Shown: in pieces, positions 48,550 through 56,292 of the stretch | Numbering within the stretch: the first letter of the stretch is position 1 | How the letters are laid out: the number at the start of each line of letters is the position of its first letter | The notes under the pieces: generated by a model | The model's database searches: none | Told to the model about the DNA's origin: nothing | What the model saw: only the letters and a program-made list of their open reading frames with translations | Translations under genes and position numbers: made by a program | NCBI RefSeq assembly: GCF_015864825.1 | Contig: NZ_JADYWL010000007.1 | Location: 62,001-126,000, forward strand | Direction: 5' to 3' | From: Psychrobacter sp. NZS113 | GTDB taxonomy: Bacteria; Pseudomonadota; Gammaproteobacteria; Pseudomonadales; Moraxellaceae | DNA length: 64,000 nt

Positions 48550-49443
48550 CTATGCTTGCAGCTGACCCAATAGCCACTCAATAATCGCCCAAACAAATAG
48601 CATCCAAGTAGGCTCTTCTGTTGGTGCATCAGGTATGTTCGAGCTTTCGCCCGCTTTTAAGGGCAAGTCAAATGCTTGTTTTTTGGTTTGAGAGTCCAGC
48701 ATTGGTAAGACGTCGATACCAGTTTCGGCAGCCAACTCATCAATACTGATGACTTCTATACGCTCTGACTCATCGTTTGGTGCGTAGTATACCCCTGCTT
48801 GATTGGTCGCTGGAATATAGACAGCTTTGAAGAAATGACTGGGTACGAGCACACGGTCAGCGAGCTGCTTGGTTTTTTTATTCGTAAATGAAACCCCTGT
48901 AATCGTATAGACTTCGCCATACTGCTGAGTCAGATAACGAGTCGCCGATTCAATGTTGCGCCAAATATAACGATTATTGCGGGGTGACTGTGGCGCAATA
49001 TTGGCCAAACTGAAGCTGTCATATTGCTGGCTGCGATTGGCCATATCTGCATTGGGTGCTAAATGTCCGCGATCATAGCCAGAACCTGAATAGTCTGATA
49101 ATGAAGCACGTGCTGAGTCTGGAAGCTTGCTTTCCTCGTGGAAACTGTCTTCACGATCAATCTCTTTGGCTTGCTGTAAGCGCTTGCGGTCTAGGTGTTC
49201 TGCCGACCATAGCGGTGTACGCGATACACCTGAGTACATGACGGCAAAACCATCCATACATAGCGCTTGTGTCTTGTTACTTAGTTTGTCATTGGTAAAT
49301 TCAGGGTAGACACCACCATAAAAAGACTCACTACACTGGGTAAAATCATCAGCGTGCGCTGAGGTTATGCTTACTACAACTGTCATAATAGTCATTATGA
49401 TGCTGTTCTTGAGATTGTATTTGAGCCTACCAACACTTATCAT
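48550..49443 (-). CDS. Secreted DNA/RNA non-specific endonuclease (NUC1 type)
   Basis: 297 aa. Signal peptide (residues ~1-31, ending SITSAHA). Active-site DRGH at 124-127 in YDRGHLAPNADM, metal-ligand Asn in APQSPRNNRYIW. Extra C-terminal hydrophobic helix (WMLFVWAIIEWLLGQL, last ~20 residues), unusual for this family and possibly a membrane anchor. Probably degrades nucleic acid in the periplasm or outside. Next to a decayed mobile remnant and tRNA-Ser. Confidence 0.85.
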   Translation of the reverse strand: MISVGRLKYNLKNSIIMTIMTVVVSITSAHADDFTQCSESFYGGVYPEFTNDKLSNKTQALCMDGFAVMYSGVSRTPLWSAEHLDRKRLQQAKEIDREDSFHEESKLPDSARASLSDYSGSGYDRGHLAPNADMANRSQQYDSFSLANIAPQSPRNNRYIWRNIESATRYLTQQYGEVYTITGVSFTNKKTKQLADRVLVPSHFFKAVYIPATNQAGVYYAPNDESERIEVISIDELAAETGIDVLPMLDSQTKKQAFDLPLKAGESSNIPDAPTEEPTWMLFVWAIIEWLLGQLQA

Positions 49444-49663: not shown

Positions 49664-50119
49664 ATCTTATTCTGCTTAATCCAAGCATCAGCTTTCCTAT
49701 CTTGTTCTACCTTCTTATATATCCCTTGCTTCCTTTAGTAGTAGGACTTTCTGTCTATACTTATTACCTTCTGCTGTCTGCAATATTCCTATCCAACTCT
49801 ATTTACTTCTATGCATCCTACGTATGATGTTAGTTTATTTGCAGTGGTTAACTAATCAAACTAAAATCAACAATATAATGACCTTTTTCTTGCCAAGAAC
49901 GTCGCAACTAAAAAAGTGACGCACCATACAGAATGAGTAGGACAACTATCTACGATATATTAGTTAAAAAACCTAAATGCTATGACGCCACCTTTCCTAT
50001 TCAGGTCAAGCTATCAAAAGACCTATGGCATGGGTAGATAGTAAGATTGTAGAGTGGTTAAATGATATGATTTAGTTGAAACAACATATCAACGTGCTCT
50101 ATTAAGGTTGGGAAACTTT
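49664..50119 (+). other. Region downstream of tRNA-Ser with phage remnant
   Basis: About 455 bp between tRNA-Ser and the LRR gene. Contains the frameshifted AlpA-like gene (49878-50075). No direct repeat of the tRNA 3' end was seen downstream within the window. Confidence 0.5.
49878..50075 (+). pseudogene. AlpA-family phage transcriptional regulator, frameshifted
   Basis: Three frames together give one AlpA-like protein: LPRTSQLKK (49878-49919), then MSRTTIYDILVKKPKCYDA...FPIQVKLS (49933-50010 or so), then RPMAWVDSKIVEWLNDMI to the TAG at 50073-50075. The parts lie in the usual order of AlpA (helix-turn-helix then wing-less C-terminus, WVDSEI-type motif). Indels break the frame twice. AlpA genes are typical of integrative elements, and this one sits 215 bp from tRNA-Ser. 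Confidence 0.75.
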
Positions 50120-51274
50120 ATGCCTCAAAATTCTAATGATACTGATCAAAAATCAAATGAATCTTATGCTCTTACAGAGCTTGACATAAGTAGCAATGCA
50201 CTCAATTCAGTAATAGCAGCGTGTAAGGTAACCACTAACAGTTTCTGGATGCAGAAAATATGGGATTGGGCAGATAGTTTTGACATCAATGATGATGCTA
50301 TATCTCGTGATAAAGAAGCTTTGCTAGCATTAAAAAGCATCGTTTTGGAAGCTCAAATTTTTACCGAACTACCTGAAAGTATCGGACAGCTTAAGAATTT
50401 AGATCGGCTTGTTCTTAATTATAATAGTCTTAGAGAGTTACCTGAGAGCCTTGGAAAACTTCTCAACTTAATTCAACTTGATCTTAATGGCAACAATCTC
50501 AAAGAACTGCCTGAAAGTATTGGACAGCTTAGTCACTTAACTCAACTTGGTCTCACTGGCAACAATCTCAAAGAACTACCTGAAAGTATTGGACAGCTTA
50601 GTCACTTAGCTCAACTGACGCTTGGTAGTAATACCCTTAATGAATTACCTGAGAGCATCGGGCAGCTTCATAATTTGACTTATCTTTCTCTTTTTGACAA
50701 TAATCTCAGCTCTTTACCCACCAGCATTGGACAGCTTAATAACCTAATTTATTTATTTCTTGCTAATAACCATTTGAGCGCATTACCTAAGAGTATTTGT
50801 CAGCTTAGCAACTTGGTGACACTGACGCTTAGTGGCAATAAAATCAGTGTATTACCCGAAAGCTTTGGTGAGCTTAACAACCTAACTCAACTGACTCTCA
50901 GTCATAACAACCTTAATGAATTACCTACTAACATTGGACAGCTTGATCGTTTAGAGATACTGAATCTTGATAACAATAACCTCAGTGAGCTACCTGAAAG
51001 TATCGGACAGCTTGGCAACTTGACTAAACTGGTGCTTAGTGACAATAAGCTCAGCGAACTACCTACAAGTATCGAACAACTTAAGCATTTGGAGATACTT
51101 GATCTTTCCAATAATAGTTTTACTGAATTACCTGAGAGTATCGGGCATATATGTCACTTAAAAACGTTATATATTGAAGGCAATAACATTCAGAAACTGC
51201 CTGAAAGTATTAAGCATAATAGCAAATTGCATATTTATGACGATAACGACCTATTAGGTAAGGCGCACTACTAA
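50120..51274 (+). CDS. Leucine-rich repeat protein
   Basis: 384 aa from ATG at 50120 (GGGA ahead; TTG at 50108 is an alternative). No signal peptide, so probably cytoplasmic. N-terminal ~85 residues are unique (WMQKIWDWADSFDIN). Then 12 full repeats of 23 aa plus a partial thirteenth, consensus LPESIGQLxxLxxLxLxxNxL. The DNA repeats are 69 bp and two neighbours (50490-50625) are nearly identical. Similar proteins often bind protein partners; target unknown. May have come with the mobile remnant next door. Confidence 0.85.
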   Translation: MPQNSNDTDQKSNESYALTELDISSNALNSVIAACKVTTNSFWMQKIWDWADSFDINDDAISRDKEALLALKSIVLEAQIFTELPESIGQLKNLDRLVLNYNSLRELPESLGKLLNLIQLDLNGNNLKELPESIGQLSHLTQLGLTGNNLKELPESIGQLSHLAQLTLGSNTLNELPESIGQLHNLTYLSLFDNNLSSLPTSIGQLNNLIYLFLANNHLSALPKSICQLSNLVTLTLSGNKISVLPESFGELNNLTQLTLSHNNLNELPTNIGQLDRLEILNLDNNNLSELPESIGQLGNLTKLVLSDNKLSELPTSIEQLKHLEILDLSNNSFTELPESIGHICHLKTLYIEGNNIQKLPESIKHNSKLHIYDDNDLLGKAHY

Positions 51275-51422: not shown

Positions 51423-52136
51423 ATGAAAACACTAGGATTGTGTATCATAGCAGGGCTAGGTTTAAGCGCTTGTGCTAGTGGTATGAGCAATGGAACGATG
51501 GGCAATAATCAAAATAATAATACTGATAAAATTGTCACGCAATACCCCATTGAGACTGCGATGCTCAACATCTATACCAAACAACGTAGTGAAAAATTGG
51601 TTGCTATTGTAGGCAATCAAAGTGCCTCAGCGGACATTCAAATCACGCCTAAGGGCAGCTTTCAATTCAATAATAAAGCGGTGCAAGGTGCCGAAGTAAA
51701 TACTATCAATAAAGTGAATAATCGAATTACTGATCAGTCAGTCGCTATCAATTACTTCACCCTGAATCCACTAGTGTTTCATGGCTTCACGGATAGCACG
51801 GGCAAATACTCACTATCAAACCAGACAACCATCATTCCTAAAATGGCTACAGTCGGCGACTCAAATAAGTTGATTACTGAAACCGTCTATGCTGATAGCA
51901 GTATGCGTAAAAAAATAGGGTCGTATGAGCAAGACTGGGCTCTTACGCGAGACACCAATAATACGGCATGGCTCTGTATAGAAAACTCAAAAAACTTATT
52001 ACTGAGCTCTGATCCTATAGGAACTTCATCCGAATGCTACAAAATCAATGCTAAAGGCGATATCTTAGCGAGCAAGGTGACACTAAGTCAGCCATCTACG
52101 AATGGCACTAAGACGGTGGTATTTACCAGTCAGTAG
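51423..52136 (+). CDS. Lipoprotein of unknown function
   Basis: 237 aa. Lipobox LSAC (Cys about residue 17), then an Asn-rich linker and a beta-rich domain. No family recognised. Preceded by AAAGGAC. Followed by MITE-like copy 2 and a strong terminator. Confidence 0.7.
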   Translation: MKTLGLCIIAGLGLSACASGMSNGTMGNNQNNNTDKIVTQYPIETAMLNIYTKQRSEKLVAIVGNQSASADIQITPKGSFQFNNKAVQGAEVNTINKVNNRITDQSVAINYFTLNPLVFHGFTDSTGKYSLSNQTTIIPKMATVGDSNKLITETVYADSSMRKKIGSYEQDWALTRDTNNTAWLCIENSKNLLLSSDPIGTSSECYKINAKGDILASKVTLSQPSTNGTKTVVFTSQ

Positions 52137-52228: not shown

Positions 52229-52336
52229 TATAGTCGGTTCAATATGATTTGGATACAAGGAAGCCGAGTGAAAGCACTACAAGTAGTAGGCTAAGCGAGA
52301 CTGACACCGTACCCAATTTATAGAGGATTGACTAGA
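52229..52336. repeat. Small inverted-repeat element (MITE-like), copy 2
   Basis: About 108 bp. Begins TATAGTC, ends GACTAGA. Left end and reverse-complemented right end agree in about 19 of 28 positions. Aligns with 18035-18141. Lies between the lipoprotein gene and its terminator (overlap of 2 bp). Confidence 0.65.
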
Positions 52337-52371
52337 GCAAGCCAACGATATACTTGGCTTGCTCCATTTTT
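52335..52371 (+). terminator. Intrinsic terminator after the lipoprotein gene
   Basis: GAGCAAGCCAA / TTGGCTTGCTC, perfect 11-bp stem, 8-base loop, then CATTTTT. Confidence 0.85.
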
Positions 52372-52444: not shown

Positions 52445-53509
52445 TTATGATCCATTTACTGTGTAGCGTACGATAACTTCATTATCGAGTACTACATTGG
52501 TTGACCAAATGAATTCAGCATCTGCTTTTTCATTATCAAAAATATCTATGAAATTGGTATAAGCTGATTTGTTGTCTACCCCAATGGTTTGATTACTATA
52601 GGTGGTAGCGTTCGGCCAACTAGAGTCATCAAAGTCTGCTTGTTGCCAGTTGGTAGGCAATTCCCAGTGCAAGCCATAATCTGCCGAACCATCTTGCACA
52701 TTAGCTGTGGTAACACAATTACTAGACAGTCGCTCGCTACCTGACTCACTAACACAGGACAAGTCTCTAATCGGTGCGGTATAAAAAGTTTGTGCTTTCC
52801 AGGTTTCATCAGTCTTGGCGATGATGCTATTGTATTTATCTTTGATCACAGCGACTAGACCACCATCTCCTGCATGAAATTCTGAGCCATTATTACTCTC
52901 TGAACCAACACCTAAGTTTTCTTCCCAATCTACCAAATGCATAGCAACGGTAAACGGTGCTTTTGCTTTGAAACGTACAATGTTTGAATTGAACTGAGTA
53001 AACGGTACATTGTCACGCCCGACGGCTACGCCATTGACGTACATCTCAAAGTAATTATCTGCAAAGACATAAGCGGTATACACCTCACCATCTGCGTCTA
53101 CTTCAATGATGTCCGAACCATCAAGTTGAGCTAAAGCTTCACTTGCGGTGCGATAGTCGTTGCCCGTACAAGGGTTGTTTAAGTCAGACGCCACTGGGAA
53201 ATCTGTATTGAGCAAATTGGTTGCTGCTGGTACTGTCCACGATTTACCATCAGTTGACTGGATACTGCCGATGTTGGTTTGACGACCGCGGTCACATTCA
53301 TAGGCATTTGTCACGTCAGTCTGAGCAACACCTTGAGTTAAGCTAGCGGTGCCAGTATAGCTGCTGGCATCTGCACTGCTATTTACTGATGCTGTCGTTT
53401 GCTCATTGGCATCGGTGGCCGCTGAGTCTATCTGAGTTTGGCTACACGCCGCCAGCAATACAGCAGATACTGTCGTGGTTAGCAAAGCAGGTATTAAAAT
53501 AGGTTTCAT
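52445..53509 (-). CDS. Lipoprotein with jelly-roll-like domain
   Basis: 354 aa. Lipobox LLAAC (Cys about 22), a Thr/Ser-rich linker, then a domain with DNYFEMYVNGVAVGRDNVPF and D-x-W-like segments (DWEENLG, DDSSWPNATTY) of the kind found in beta-galactosidase-like jelly rolls. Cys in CDRGRQ, CTGND and CVSESG/SNCVTT could form disulfides. Function unknown. Downstream (minus) of the YHYH gene with 81 bp between. Confidence 0.6.
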   Translation of the reverse strand: MKPILIPALLTTTVSAVLLAACSQTQIDSAATDANEQTTASVNSSADASSYTGTASLTQGVAQTDVTNAYECDRGRQTNIGSIQSTDGKSWTVPAATNLLNTDFPVASDLNNPCTGNDYRTASEALAQLDGSDIIEVDADGEVYTAYVFADNYFEMYVNGVAVGRDNVPFTQFNSNIVRFKAKAPFTVAMHLVDWEENLGVGSESNNGSEFHAGDGGLVAVIKDKYNSIIAKTDETWKAQTFYTAPIRDLSCVSESGSERLSSNCVTTANVQDGSADYGLHWELPTNWQQADFDDSSWPNATTYSNQTIGVDNKSAYTNFIDIFDNEKADAEFIWSTNVVLDNEVIVRYTVNGS

Positions 53510-53590
53510 TAGGATTCCTTAGCATTATATAAGATGGTTTTTGAAATCAGCTTATTATTTCTATAACTGATCATTATCATTGAATGCACA

Positions 53591-55129
53591 CTATTTTTTC
53601 TGTATGTCATCAGTGCGTTTATAAGTCTGTACGGTCGTACCCTCTGGATCAATAAATTCAAAAGTATAAATATCTTTGGTCGCTTCAGTAGCGCCCCAAC
53701 CATAGTTAAGCTTATGCTCTTGACCGTCATGGGTATACGTTAGACTGTATTGAGTCGGACTTATAATCTTATAATCTGTGATCTCAGCTCCGCGCAAAGG
53801 CGTCAGCGCTGGGCGAACGCCATGAGTATGTGCTTGCGGTGAAATTTCATTTTCTGGTGCTTTCGTATCTGGGTTTATAGTGACCTTACCGCGCAAACCG
53901 GCAATTAAATACGGAAACTCTGAAGTAGCATGGTATTCATAGCTACCGTCTTCATTGAATTTGCCTAAATATTCATCAAGCTCATCATCGGTTTCACCAT
54001 AGACAGGAAAGCCGTCTAGTGCATAAGCAATGGGCTTACCTTCACCAACTTGTGACTGTAGATGGGTTGGTGCAAGATGATAGTGGTAGTCATCAGCGCG
54101 TCCAGAATGCCCGCCCCAATTGTCTAACTCTCCGAATGCTTTGGCATCCTCACCACGATTGTTTAATGGGTTAAATATAGGAATGCCATTAGCTGCAATA
54201 GCGATGGCCCCTTTCATAAAATTGTCTTTGGCCATTAAAGGCTCATCGGCAAGCTCAGGCTGTAAAGGAATGACCCAACTGTTCTCATTGGTATAATCCT
54301 GGTCTATAGGTACTTGCTGTTGCCAACTGGTGATACCTGTCATCATTTCGTGGCTTGGGATACCATTTGATTCGACATACAGATATTTATCATCATGATG
54401 AGTACTGACGTTATCGAATGAGCCAAATACTGACGTCATAAAATCAATATCATTGGCTGGTACGGGCAAATGAGCAACCGCCTCTTTCGTCTTTTCACCG
54501 ATATTTTGAGCCGTCTCAGTACTGCTACAAGCCACAAGCAAAGCAGCTGAACCCAATACTCCAAAAACTGAATAGGTGATTTTTGACGGTCGGTTTTTCT
54601 TGTGGCGTATATTCAAAACATAGAACAAAACCAAACCACTCGCTAAGACCAAGCCACCCAACAAGTAGAAGAATAAGACAGAGCGTGTGTCACTGTTATC
54701 CGTCATGACAAACGTTGCCGCATCAGCTTTATTTAGTGCCGTTCCATTATCGTTAGCGATAACAGTAGTATCGTTTGGATTTTGGATAGCCGTTAATTGA
54801 TTACTACTTACTAGATTGTCAATCACTGCTAGCTGATTGATCGCTTGAATATGGGCGTTTTTTTCCAAAATATAGGTTTGATCATCGGCTGAAAAGTCCG
54901 ACAAATCAAAAGAGAGCAACTGATGGTGGCTATCCGTTAAATAAACAGTACCATCTTCTAGTTTGATAAAATCAGCAGCGACACTAGGCTGGCCTGTGAT
55001 CTGCCACTCTTTGGCAGGCATGGTATGTTCACTAAGGTCATGCGCGTAGGCAGAGGTCAGTGATGAAACTTGTATGGCAGTGACAATAGCAAGCAAGCTG
55101 AAAGCTTTAGCTGTTTTTGTAAGGGTCAT
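53591..55129 (-). CDS. YHYH-domain membrane protein
   Basis: 512 aa. Signal peptide (SAYAH), a ~120-residue N-terminal domain, a membrane helix (about 151-172), positively charged IRHKKNRPSK, a second hydrophobic segment (185-200) ending LLVAC with Cys201, then the YHYH domain: SNGIPSHEMMTG, ANGIPIFNPLNN, DDYHYHLAP and YALDGFPVYGE, with HTHGVRP near the end. Predicted topology places the YHYH domain outside the inner membrane. His clusters suggest metal binding. Function unknown. Forms an apparent operon with the lipoprotein gene. Confidence 0.8.
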   Translation of the reverse strand: MTLTKTAKAFSLLAIVTAIQVSSLTSAYAHDLSEHTMPAKEWQITGQPSVAADFIKLEDGTVYLTDSHHQLLSFDLSDFSADDQTYILEKNAHIQAINQLAVIDNLVSSNQLTAIQNPNDTTVIANDNGTALNKADAATFVMTDNSDTRSVLFFYLLGGLVLASGLVLFYVLNIRHKKNRPSKITYSVFGVLGSAALLVACSSTETAQNIGEKTKEAVAHLPVPANDIDFMTSVFGSFDNVSTHHDDKYLYVESNGIPSHEMMTGITSWQQQVPIDQDYTNENSWVIPLQPELADEPLMAKDNFMKGAIAIAANGIPIFNPLNNRGEDAKAFGELDNWGGHSGRADDYHYHLAPTHLQSQVGEGKPIAYALDGFPVYGETDDELDEYLGKFNEDGSYEYHATSEFPYLIAGLRGKVTINPDTKAPENEISPQAHTHGVRPALTPLRGAEITDYKIISPTQYSLTYTHDGQEHKLNYGWGATEATKDIYTFEFIDPEGTTVQTYKRTDDIQKK

Positions 55130-55749: not shown

Positions 55750-56292
55750 ATGTCAACAGACTACACTCAAAAACTTCATGCTGGCGTAAAATTCCCAGAG
55801 ATAGAAGTAACCATGCTAAATGGCGAAGTAAAATCATTGGGTACGCCCGAAAATGGTCATGACTGGAAAATGGTCGTCATTTATCGCGGTAAACATTGCC
55901 CAAAATGCACTCAATATCTCACTCAGCTTGAGTCTATAAAAGAGTCGTTTGCTAAGGTAGGCGTTGATATCATCGCCATCTCAGGTGATAGCAAAGAGCA
56001 ACTAGACGCGCACCTAGAAGAGTTAGACATTAACTTCCCTATCGCTTACGGTCTAACTGTTGAGCAGATGCACATGCTAGGTCTATACATCTCTGACCCA
56101 CGCTCAGAGAAAGAAACCGACCATCCATTCGCTGAGCCTGGCTTGTTTATTATCAATGCAGAAGGTGATATTCAGATACTCGATATCTCAAATGCACCAT
56201 TTGCTCGTCCAGATCTAGAAGTGCTCGCTGGTGGTTTAGCTTTTATTAGAAATCCAGAAAATAACTACCCTATCCGTGGTATGCATCGCTAG
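55750..56292 (+). CDS. Peroxiredoxin-like / AhpC-TSA family protein
   Basis: 180 aa, no signal. Thioredoxin fold with CPKC (HCPKCTQY), in place of the usual TxxC of peroxiredoxins, and VDIIAISGDSKEQLDAHL. Likely a thiol redox enzyme. The ATG follows AAGGA. Monocistronic with a strong terminator. Confidence 0.8.
   Translation: MSTDYTQKLHAGVKFPEIEVTMLNGEVKSLGTPENGHDWKMVVIYRGKHCPKCTQYLTQLESIKESFAKVGVDIIAISGDSKEQLDAHLEELDINFPIAYGLTVEQMHMLGLYISDPRSEKETDHPFAEPGLFIINAEGDIQILDISNAPFARPDLEVLAGGLAFIRNPENNYPIRGMHR

Follow-up and report, generated by a model that had tools for sequence, protein, structure and literature searches.

The 512-aa YHYH protein encoded in the analyzed DNA is probably more than one half of a neighbor pair: it appears to be a precursor with an internal lipoprotein signal that belongs to a surface module. 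We consider it fairly likely that this protein is a two-in-one envelope precursor, which is cut at the internal signal, and that its YHYH product acts with the lipoprotein encoded next to it. The surface pair was previously unstudied. The window, i.e., the whole analyzed stretch of 64,000 nucleotides, comes from Psychrobacter sp. NZS113 (G000:C46 in the genome set). An earlier, sequence-only reading of it had proposed an envelope system in which a lipoprotein is paired with a membrane protein that has two helices and an external domain. The envelope pair is supported by our analysis, but the two-helix membrane protein is likely a two-product precursor instead. The two genes and their parts are arranged in the window as follows:

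53591..55129, minus strand: gene of the putative YHYH precursor, 512 aa (open reading frame with a PF14240 match)
55043..55129, minus strand: Sec signal peptide, residues 1-29, with a predicted signal peptidase I site between A29 and H30
54851..55018, minus strand: SHD1-like (Sla1 homology domain 1) fold, residues 38-93
54608..54676, minus strand: first membrane helix, about residues 152-174 (modeled helix 147-175; hydropathy segments)
54530..54583, minus strand: second membrane helix, residues 183-200, the proposed internal lipoprotein signal peptide (model, hydropathy)
54527..54541, minus strand: internal lipobox LLVAC, residues 197-201 (C201 codon at 54527-54529)
53990..54280, minus strand: YHYH domain core, residues 284-380 (PF14240, 8.5e-15)
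54077-54088, minus strand: YHYH motif, residues 348-351
52445..53509, minus strand: partner lipoprotein gene, 354 aa (open reading frame; homolog at 55 of the best 80 of 583 YHYH loci)
53444..53446, minus strand: partner lipobox Cys22 (LLAAC; C22 in at least 90% of 48 sequences)
52544..53149, minus strand: sugar-binding-like beta-sandwich of the partner, residues 121-322

The layout described from the letters alone is real: a signal peptide, an SHD1-like domain, a two-helix hairpin ending in LLVAC, and a YHYH domain follow one another, and the partner gene lies 81 bp downstream on the same strand. A29, at the predicted cleavage site, is present in 115 of the 120 rows of the alignment of Cys-bearing relatives. 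Residues 38-93 have the fold of an SHD1 domain; PF03983 (SHD1) gave no Pfam match to the window protein at E ≤ 1. The second membrane helix is preceded by a basic loop, and C201 at its end is the sole Cys of the protein. The PF14240 score of the YHYH domain (55.7 bits) is above the gathering cut-off of 25; the model of the YHYH core is poor (mean pLDDT 57.9).

The DNA around the window copy is Psychrobacter-like, and the six closest named loci among the best 80 of 583 (L038-L043) are all from Psychrobacter. A gene of an AhpC/TSA peroxiredoxin (55750-56292) is divergent from the YHYH gene. It is absent from the nearby open reading frames listed for four of the six Psychrobacter loci (L038, L040, L041, L042), and thus it probably lies outside the module. 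On the other side of the pair, the window encodes a 388-aa leucine-rich-repeat protein (PF13855) with a regular run of repeats (50108-51274) and a DNA/RNA non-specific endonuclease (PF01223, 7.5e-45) whose start is signal-like and whose C-terminal end is hydrophobic (48550-49443). A terminator-like hairpin of 11 pairs with a T run on the plus strand (52335-52364) would serve the plus-strand lipoprotein gene at 51423-52136, not the YHYH pair.

The internal lipobox is a hallmark of the family. Among the matches listed, the window protein and 120 relatives were aligned, and Cys occupies the lipobox place in 119 of these 121 proteins; the exceptions are P0005, which lacks the hairpin, and P0100, which has Phe. 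In the 119 proteins, the residue preceding this Cys is always one of three: G in 42, S in 39 and A in 38. In the set of loci it is A in 23, S in 12, G in 11 and T in one (L079; n = 47). LLVAC conforms to a PROSITE-like lipobox pattern (basic n-region, h-region, [LVI]-x-[GAS]-C), but its position is not that of an N-terminal type II signal, as the Cys is residue 201 and follows the SHD1-like domain and a helix. The strict pattern was found in 43 of 80 YHYH proteins and in 1 of 654 other open reading frames of at least 200 aa at the same best 80 of 583 loci. The residues that follow the Cys are variable, as would be expected of a cleavage site; an acidic run, as in surface-export signals, occurs there in only 18 of 118 proteins. 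Relatives without SHD1 and the first helix are plain lipoproteins (P0119 and six loci), and in P0119, L082, L084, L088 and L107 the lipobox Cys starts the equivalent region. Three other YHYH proteins found in the window genome start like ordinary lipoproteins, and the genome has an LspA gene. The lipobox-like end is probably the site of cleavage and lipidation.

If the hairpin were left uncut, the YHYH part would be held at the inner membrane and the Cys would have some other role, such as another acylation or packing. Two properties of helix 2 would suit such a protein: the -3 residue is often Phe or Ile rather than Leu, and the hydrophobic stretch is slightly long. Counted from the last basic residue, the Cys follows at a distance of 14-24 (median 18) in the 47 internal-Cys proteins; in the partner lipoproteins this distance has a mode of 15 (101 of 120), which makes helix 2 slightly longer than a usual lipoprotein signal. 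However, we find an uncut hairpin unlikely in view of the restriction of the -1 residue to G, A or S in all the 119 Cys proteins among the matches listed and of the plain lipoprotein relatives with Cys at the equivalent place. Moreover, an internal disulfide would need a second Cys, which the window protein does not have, and the T9SS sorting domain carried by 13 of 13 Phe forms (see below) would be senseless on an uncut protein of the inner membrane.

It is also conceivable that the YHYH lipoprotein is made mainly from a second translation start between the helices, in which case helix 2 would be the N-terminal signal of a nested gene. Indeed, 42 of 47 internal-Cys genes have a potential start codon (ATG, GTG or TTG) at a distance of 14-40 codons upstream of the Cys, and 18 have an ATG. 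However, the commonest position of such a codon is common to only 14 of the 47, and in the window gene all codons of this kind are TTG. At one Psychrobacter locus (L043:2466-3991) the YHYH gene is broken at the hairpin into an SHD1-helix frame and a YHYH lipoprotein frame that starts just before helix 2, as if a nested start were in use; this locus comes from a MAG, and the break may be a natural split or an assembly error. All in all, a nested start seems improbable to us.

Cleavage within the precursor is also suggested by a group of relatives in which the Cys is replaced. The loci compared here are the best 80 of 583 confirmed stretches and thus represent the closest relatives; matches to the YHYH protein numbered at least 3,459 in the first search and at least 5,001 in the Phe-form search. 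Of the 74 loci from other organisms than Psychrobacter, 46 show the internal Cys, 13 have Phe together with a T9SS tail, and 6 encode plain N-terminal lipoproteins; the remainder comprises 3 fusions with the partner, 1 Phe form without a tail, and 5 others. The 13 Phe forms have about 90 extra C-terminal residues, with the T9SS type A sorting domain TIGR04183 in all of them. No such tail domain was found among the 120 relatives listed for the window protein. The Phe-form search was seeded with the 13 tail-bearing proteins, so it tests whether Cys co-occurs with the tail and not how frequent the two states are. Of the 120 proteins listed from it, 119 have PF18962 and 119 have Phe at the Cys place, and the preceding residue is S in 70, A in 27, G in 22 and N in 1. 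The residue before the Phe thus stays small, and the -3 residue of these helices is mostly Leu (95 of 119), which does not make a classical signal peptidase I site. As the 13 loci form one clade, within Bacteroidota (SH-aLRT 99), the switch is a single event and the counts cannot be treated as independent. Phe without a tail occurs in L051 and its near twin P0100, and the partner at L051 is still a lipoprotein.

The anchor of the partner appears to have switched as well. Among the 33 internal-Cys loci whose partner gene is separate, an N-terminal lipobox was recognized by pattern in 30 partners (the exceptions are L068, L080 and L095), and in all 33 the domain is followed by 3 residues at most. 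A partner is present at nine of the 13 Phe-form loci; in eight cases it has 85-97 residues beyond the domain, and in the ninth (L108) it is cut short. Judged by eye, 7 of these 9 partners start like type I signal peptides; the start at L114 is ambiguous, and the L108 partner has LLGC within its signal. PF18962 was detected in 6 of the 7 Phe-form partners scanned, two of them below the cut-off, and the L096 partner gave no match. The partner of the Phe clade is therefore mostly devoid of a lipobox and usually tailed, a pattern that points to one shared switch of anchor. A T9SS-tailed domain cannot stay at the inner membrane, which means that the YHYH part would be released from the hairpin in the Phe forms; by parsimony, we infer its release in the Cys forms too, there by LspA.

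The two genes go together. A profile search with the lipoprotein (E up to 1e-5) detected a partner homolog at 55 of the best 80 of 583 YHYH loci: 50 are neighbors within two open reading frames, 3 are fused to the YHYH gene (L078, L085, L087), and 2 (L110, L114) are separated from it by about 4.9 kb. The partner may precede or follow the YHYH gene, and one neighboring partner (L082) is on the opposite strand. Seven of the 55 match the jelly-roll part only (L073, L078, L082, L085, L087, L107, L111). The partner is missing at the other 25 of these 80 loci, 6 of which are at contig ends. Lack of co-occurrence in other genomes had been named in advance as the observation that would speak against the pair; the 55 loci, with three fusions among them, do not bear it out. 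The partner has the beta-sandwich fold of the GH78-type sugar-binding domain (CBM67) and resembles both the sugar-binding domain of GH78 rhamnosidase and a Pleurotus lectin; in contrast to the rhamnosidase, it has no catalytic domain. PF08531 matched it with E 0.012 and two paralogs with 0.0035 and 0.026, all below the cut-off. Thus, the partner is probably a sugar-binding beta-sandwich of the rhamnosidase/lectin kind.

Within the genus, the distribution is patchy. A YHYH match of some kind was found in 10 of 100 genomes; in 8 the gene is of the window type (two copies are broken), and the lipoprotein adjoins it in all 8, while G001 and G081 have distant paralogs only. Matches to the partner occur in 12 of the 100 genomes, including a remnant in G003, two weak N-terminal matches, and a solo paralog in G042. 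One of the genomes retains just the C-terminal end of the partner gene as a remnant, beside a 2200-aa open reading frame (L122:6936-7193). In a quick, midpoint-rooted tree of the YHYH part, Psychrobacter falls into a group of 15 rows, 11 of which are Bacteroidota (SH-aLRT 90). This grouping and the patchy presence make transfer from Bacteroidota likely, and the window copy was probably acquired in this way.

A second YHYH locus is also found in the genus (L118:4406-10291, L120:4086-11710, L123:4957-10878, L124:3365-7339). In G015 and G017 it has a PEBP-like gene and a 64% partner paralog besides two YHYH lipoproteins; in G000 and G081 it has no partner paralog. The PEBP family of the gene was established on the G000 copy. 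This locus also encodes a protein that begins with His after its signal. In the window genome a PAP2-type phosphatase gene comes next to it, and look-alike open reading frames are present in L120 and L123.

Neighboring genes were counted at the 74 non-Psychrobacter loci among the best 80 of 583. Within four genes, PEBP (PF01161) is encoded at 32 loci (four of these are fusions with YHYH), Lcl_C proteins at 20, and metallophosphoesterases with purple-acid-phosphatase-like parts at 19, the last two counts being made with trimmed seeds. LytS-type kinases are nearby at 13 loci and LytTR regulators at 14, ECF sigma factors at 6, and Metal_resist, multicopper oxidase and HupE/UreJ at 4 each. The clusters of His noted in the letters had been taken as a hint at metal, and the conserved residues of the YHYH domain would fit a metal site: in each of the two protein sets, conservation reaches at least 95% at H260, H341, H349, H351, H400, D328, D336, D346 and D347. 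A survey of jumbo phages (PMC7824862) predicts for such domains a Zn2+ site and a metal-dependent hydrolase, a SAR11 phage paper (PMC7029224) places them with carbohydrate-binding, host-recognition domains, and a diatom paper (PMC11992049) with families more abundant in temperate waters. H30 (codon 55040-55042), the predicted first residue of the mature protein, is found without exception wherever the alignment has no gap there (117 of 117 rows in the Cys set, 120 of 120 in the Phe set), and may provide a metal site at the N terminus. Hairpin-less forms from Planctomycetota (L103, L116, L117) are likewise predicted to start with His once mature.

The module could thus serve mainly the uptake or detoxification of copper or another metal, bound by the His-starting SHD1 piece and the YHYH domain. 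The invariance of H30 (237 of 237 non-gap rows in the two sets) and the occasional Metal_resist, multicopper oxidase and ECF sigma neighbors are in line with that. We hold this for possible but rather doubtful, as metal-type neighbors are few, and the commoner PEBP proteins and metallophosphoesterases, together with the jelly-roll partner, suggest instead the hydrolysis of surface or extracellular material. The YHYH domain itself may act as a metal-dependent hydrolase.

Taken together, the data are consistent with the following course of events in the two-in-one precursor. Export by Sec and cleavage by signal peptidase I would expose the N-terminal SHD1-like domain, beginning with the invariant His, and the hairpin would cross the inner membrane twice. 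Helix 2 is laid out like a lipoprotein signal peptide, with basic residues, a hydrophobic stretch and LLVAC, so that Lgt could lipidate C201 and LspA could cut between A200 and C201. Residues 30-200 would then remain in the membrane as the SHD1 piece, and residues 201-512 would become the YHYH lipoprotein. In E. coli, Ser at +2 directs a lipoprotein through Lol to the outer membrane. The YHYH lipoprotein, which has Ser at +2, would be sorted likewise and would work with the neighboring lipoprotein, perhaps in a physical complex, in a module that frequently includes a PEBP protein or metallophosphoesterases too. We give an even chance to the fullest version, in which the internal LspA-cut signal makes two proteins, one clade of Bacteroidota swapped the anchor of the whole operon from lipid to T9SS in concert, by exchanging Cys for Phe where the cut would fall and adding a sorting domain to each of the two proteins, YHYH always leaves the hairpin, and the SHD1 His may bind copper.

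Signal peptides of lipoproteins are normally sought at N termini, and annotation would therefore miss internal ones. If precursors are cut internally by LspA, a single gene could place two linked domains in different membranes at a fixed ratio. The Cys-or-Phe position, matched by the anchor of the partner, would provide a readout, in sequence, of the destination of the surface complex. YHYH itself gains a frequent partner and a compartment to test, the published accounts examined being predictions only.

Among known systems, NCBIfam NF033207 (midcut-by-XrtH) shares, going by its name, the idea of an envelope protein cleaved centrally, but its cutter is by name an exosortase, not LspA, and only 1 of 51 relatives matches it, weakly (0.052). 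The putative C-terminal anchoring domain NF058595 ('lipo-invert') is matched by 19 of 51 relatives at E ≤ 0.5 (best 0.0017) and by the window protein at 0.043 over the hairpin (residues 142-206; 14.1 bits, below the curated cut-off of 37); it is by name a model of a C-terminal tail, whereas in the window protein a 300-aa domain comes after the hairpin. By its PF14240 match (8.5e-15), its YHYH motif and its conserved His and Asp, the protein belongs with the YHYH family, but differs from the predicted Zn2+ metallohydrolase of phage tails, as that is described in the excerpt of the survey (PMC7824862), in being a putative precursor with SHD1 and a hairpin, and part of a bacterial envelope pair. 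The closest parallel in processing would be the lipoproteins handled by Lgt and LspA: helix 2 resembles their type II signal peptide with LLVAC at its end, but here the signal is internal: it ends at residue 201, with a signal peptide, a domain and a further helix ahead of it.
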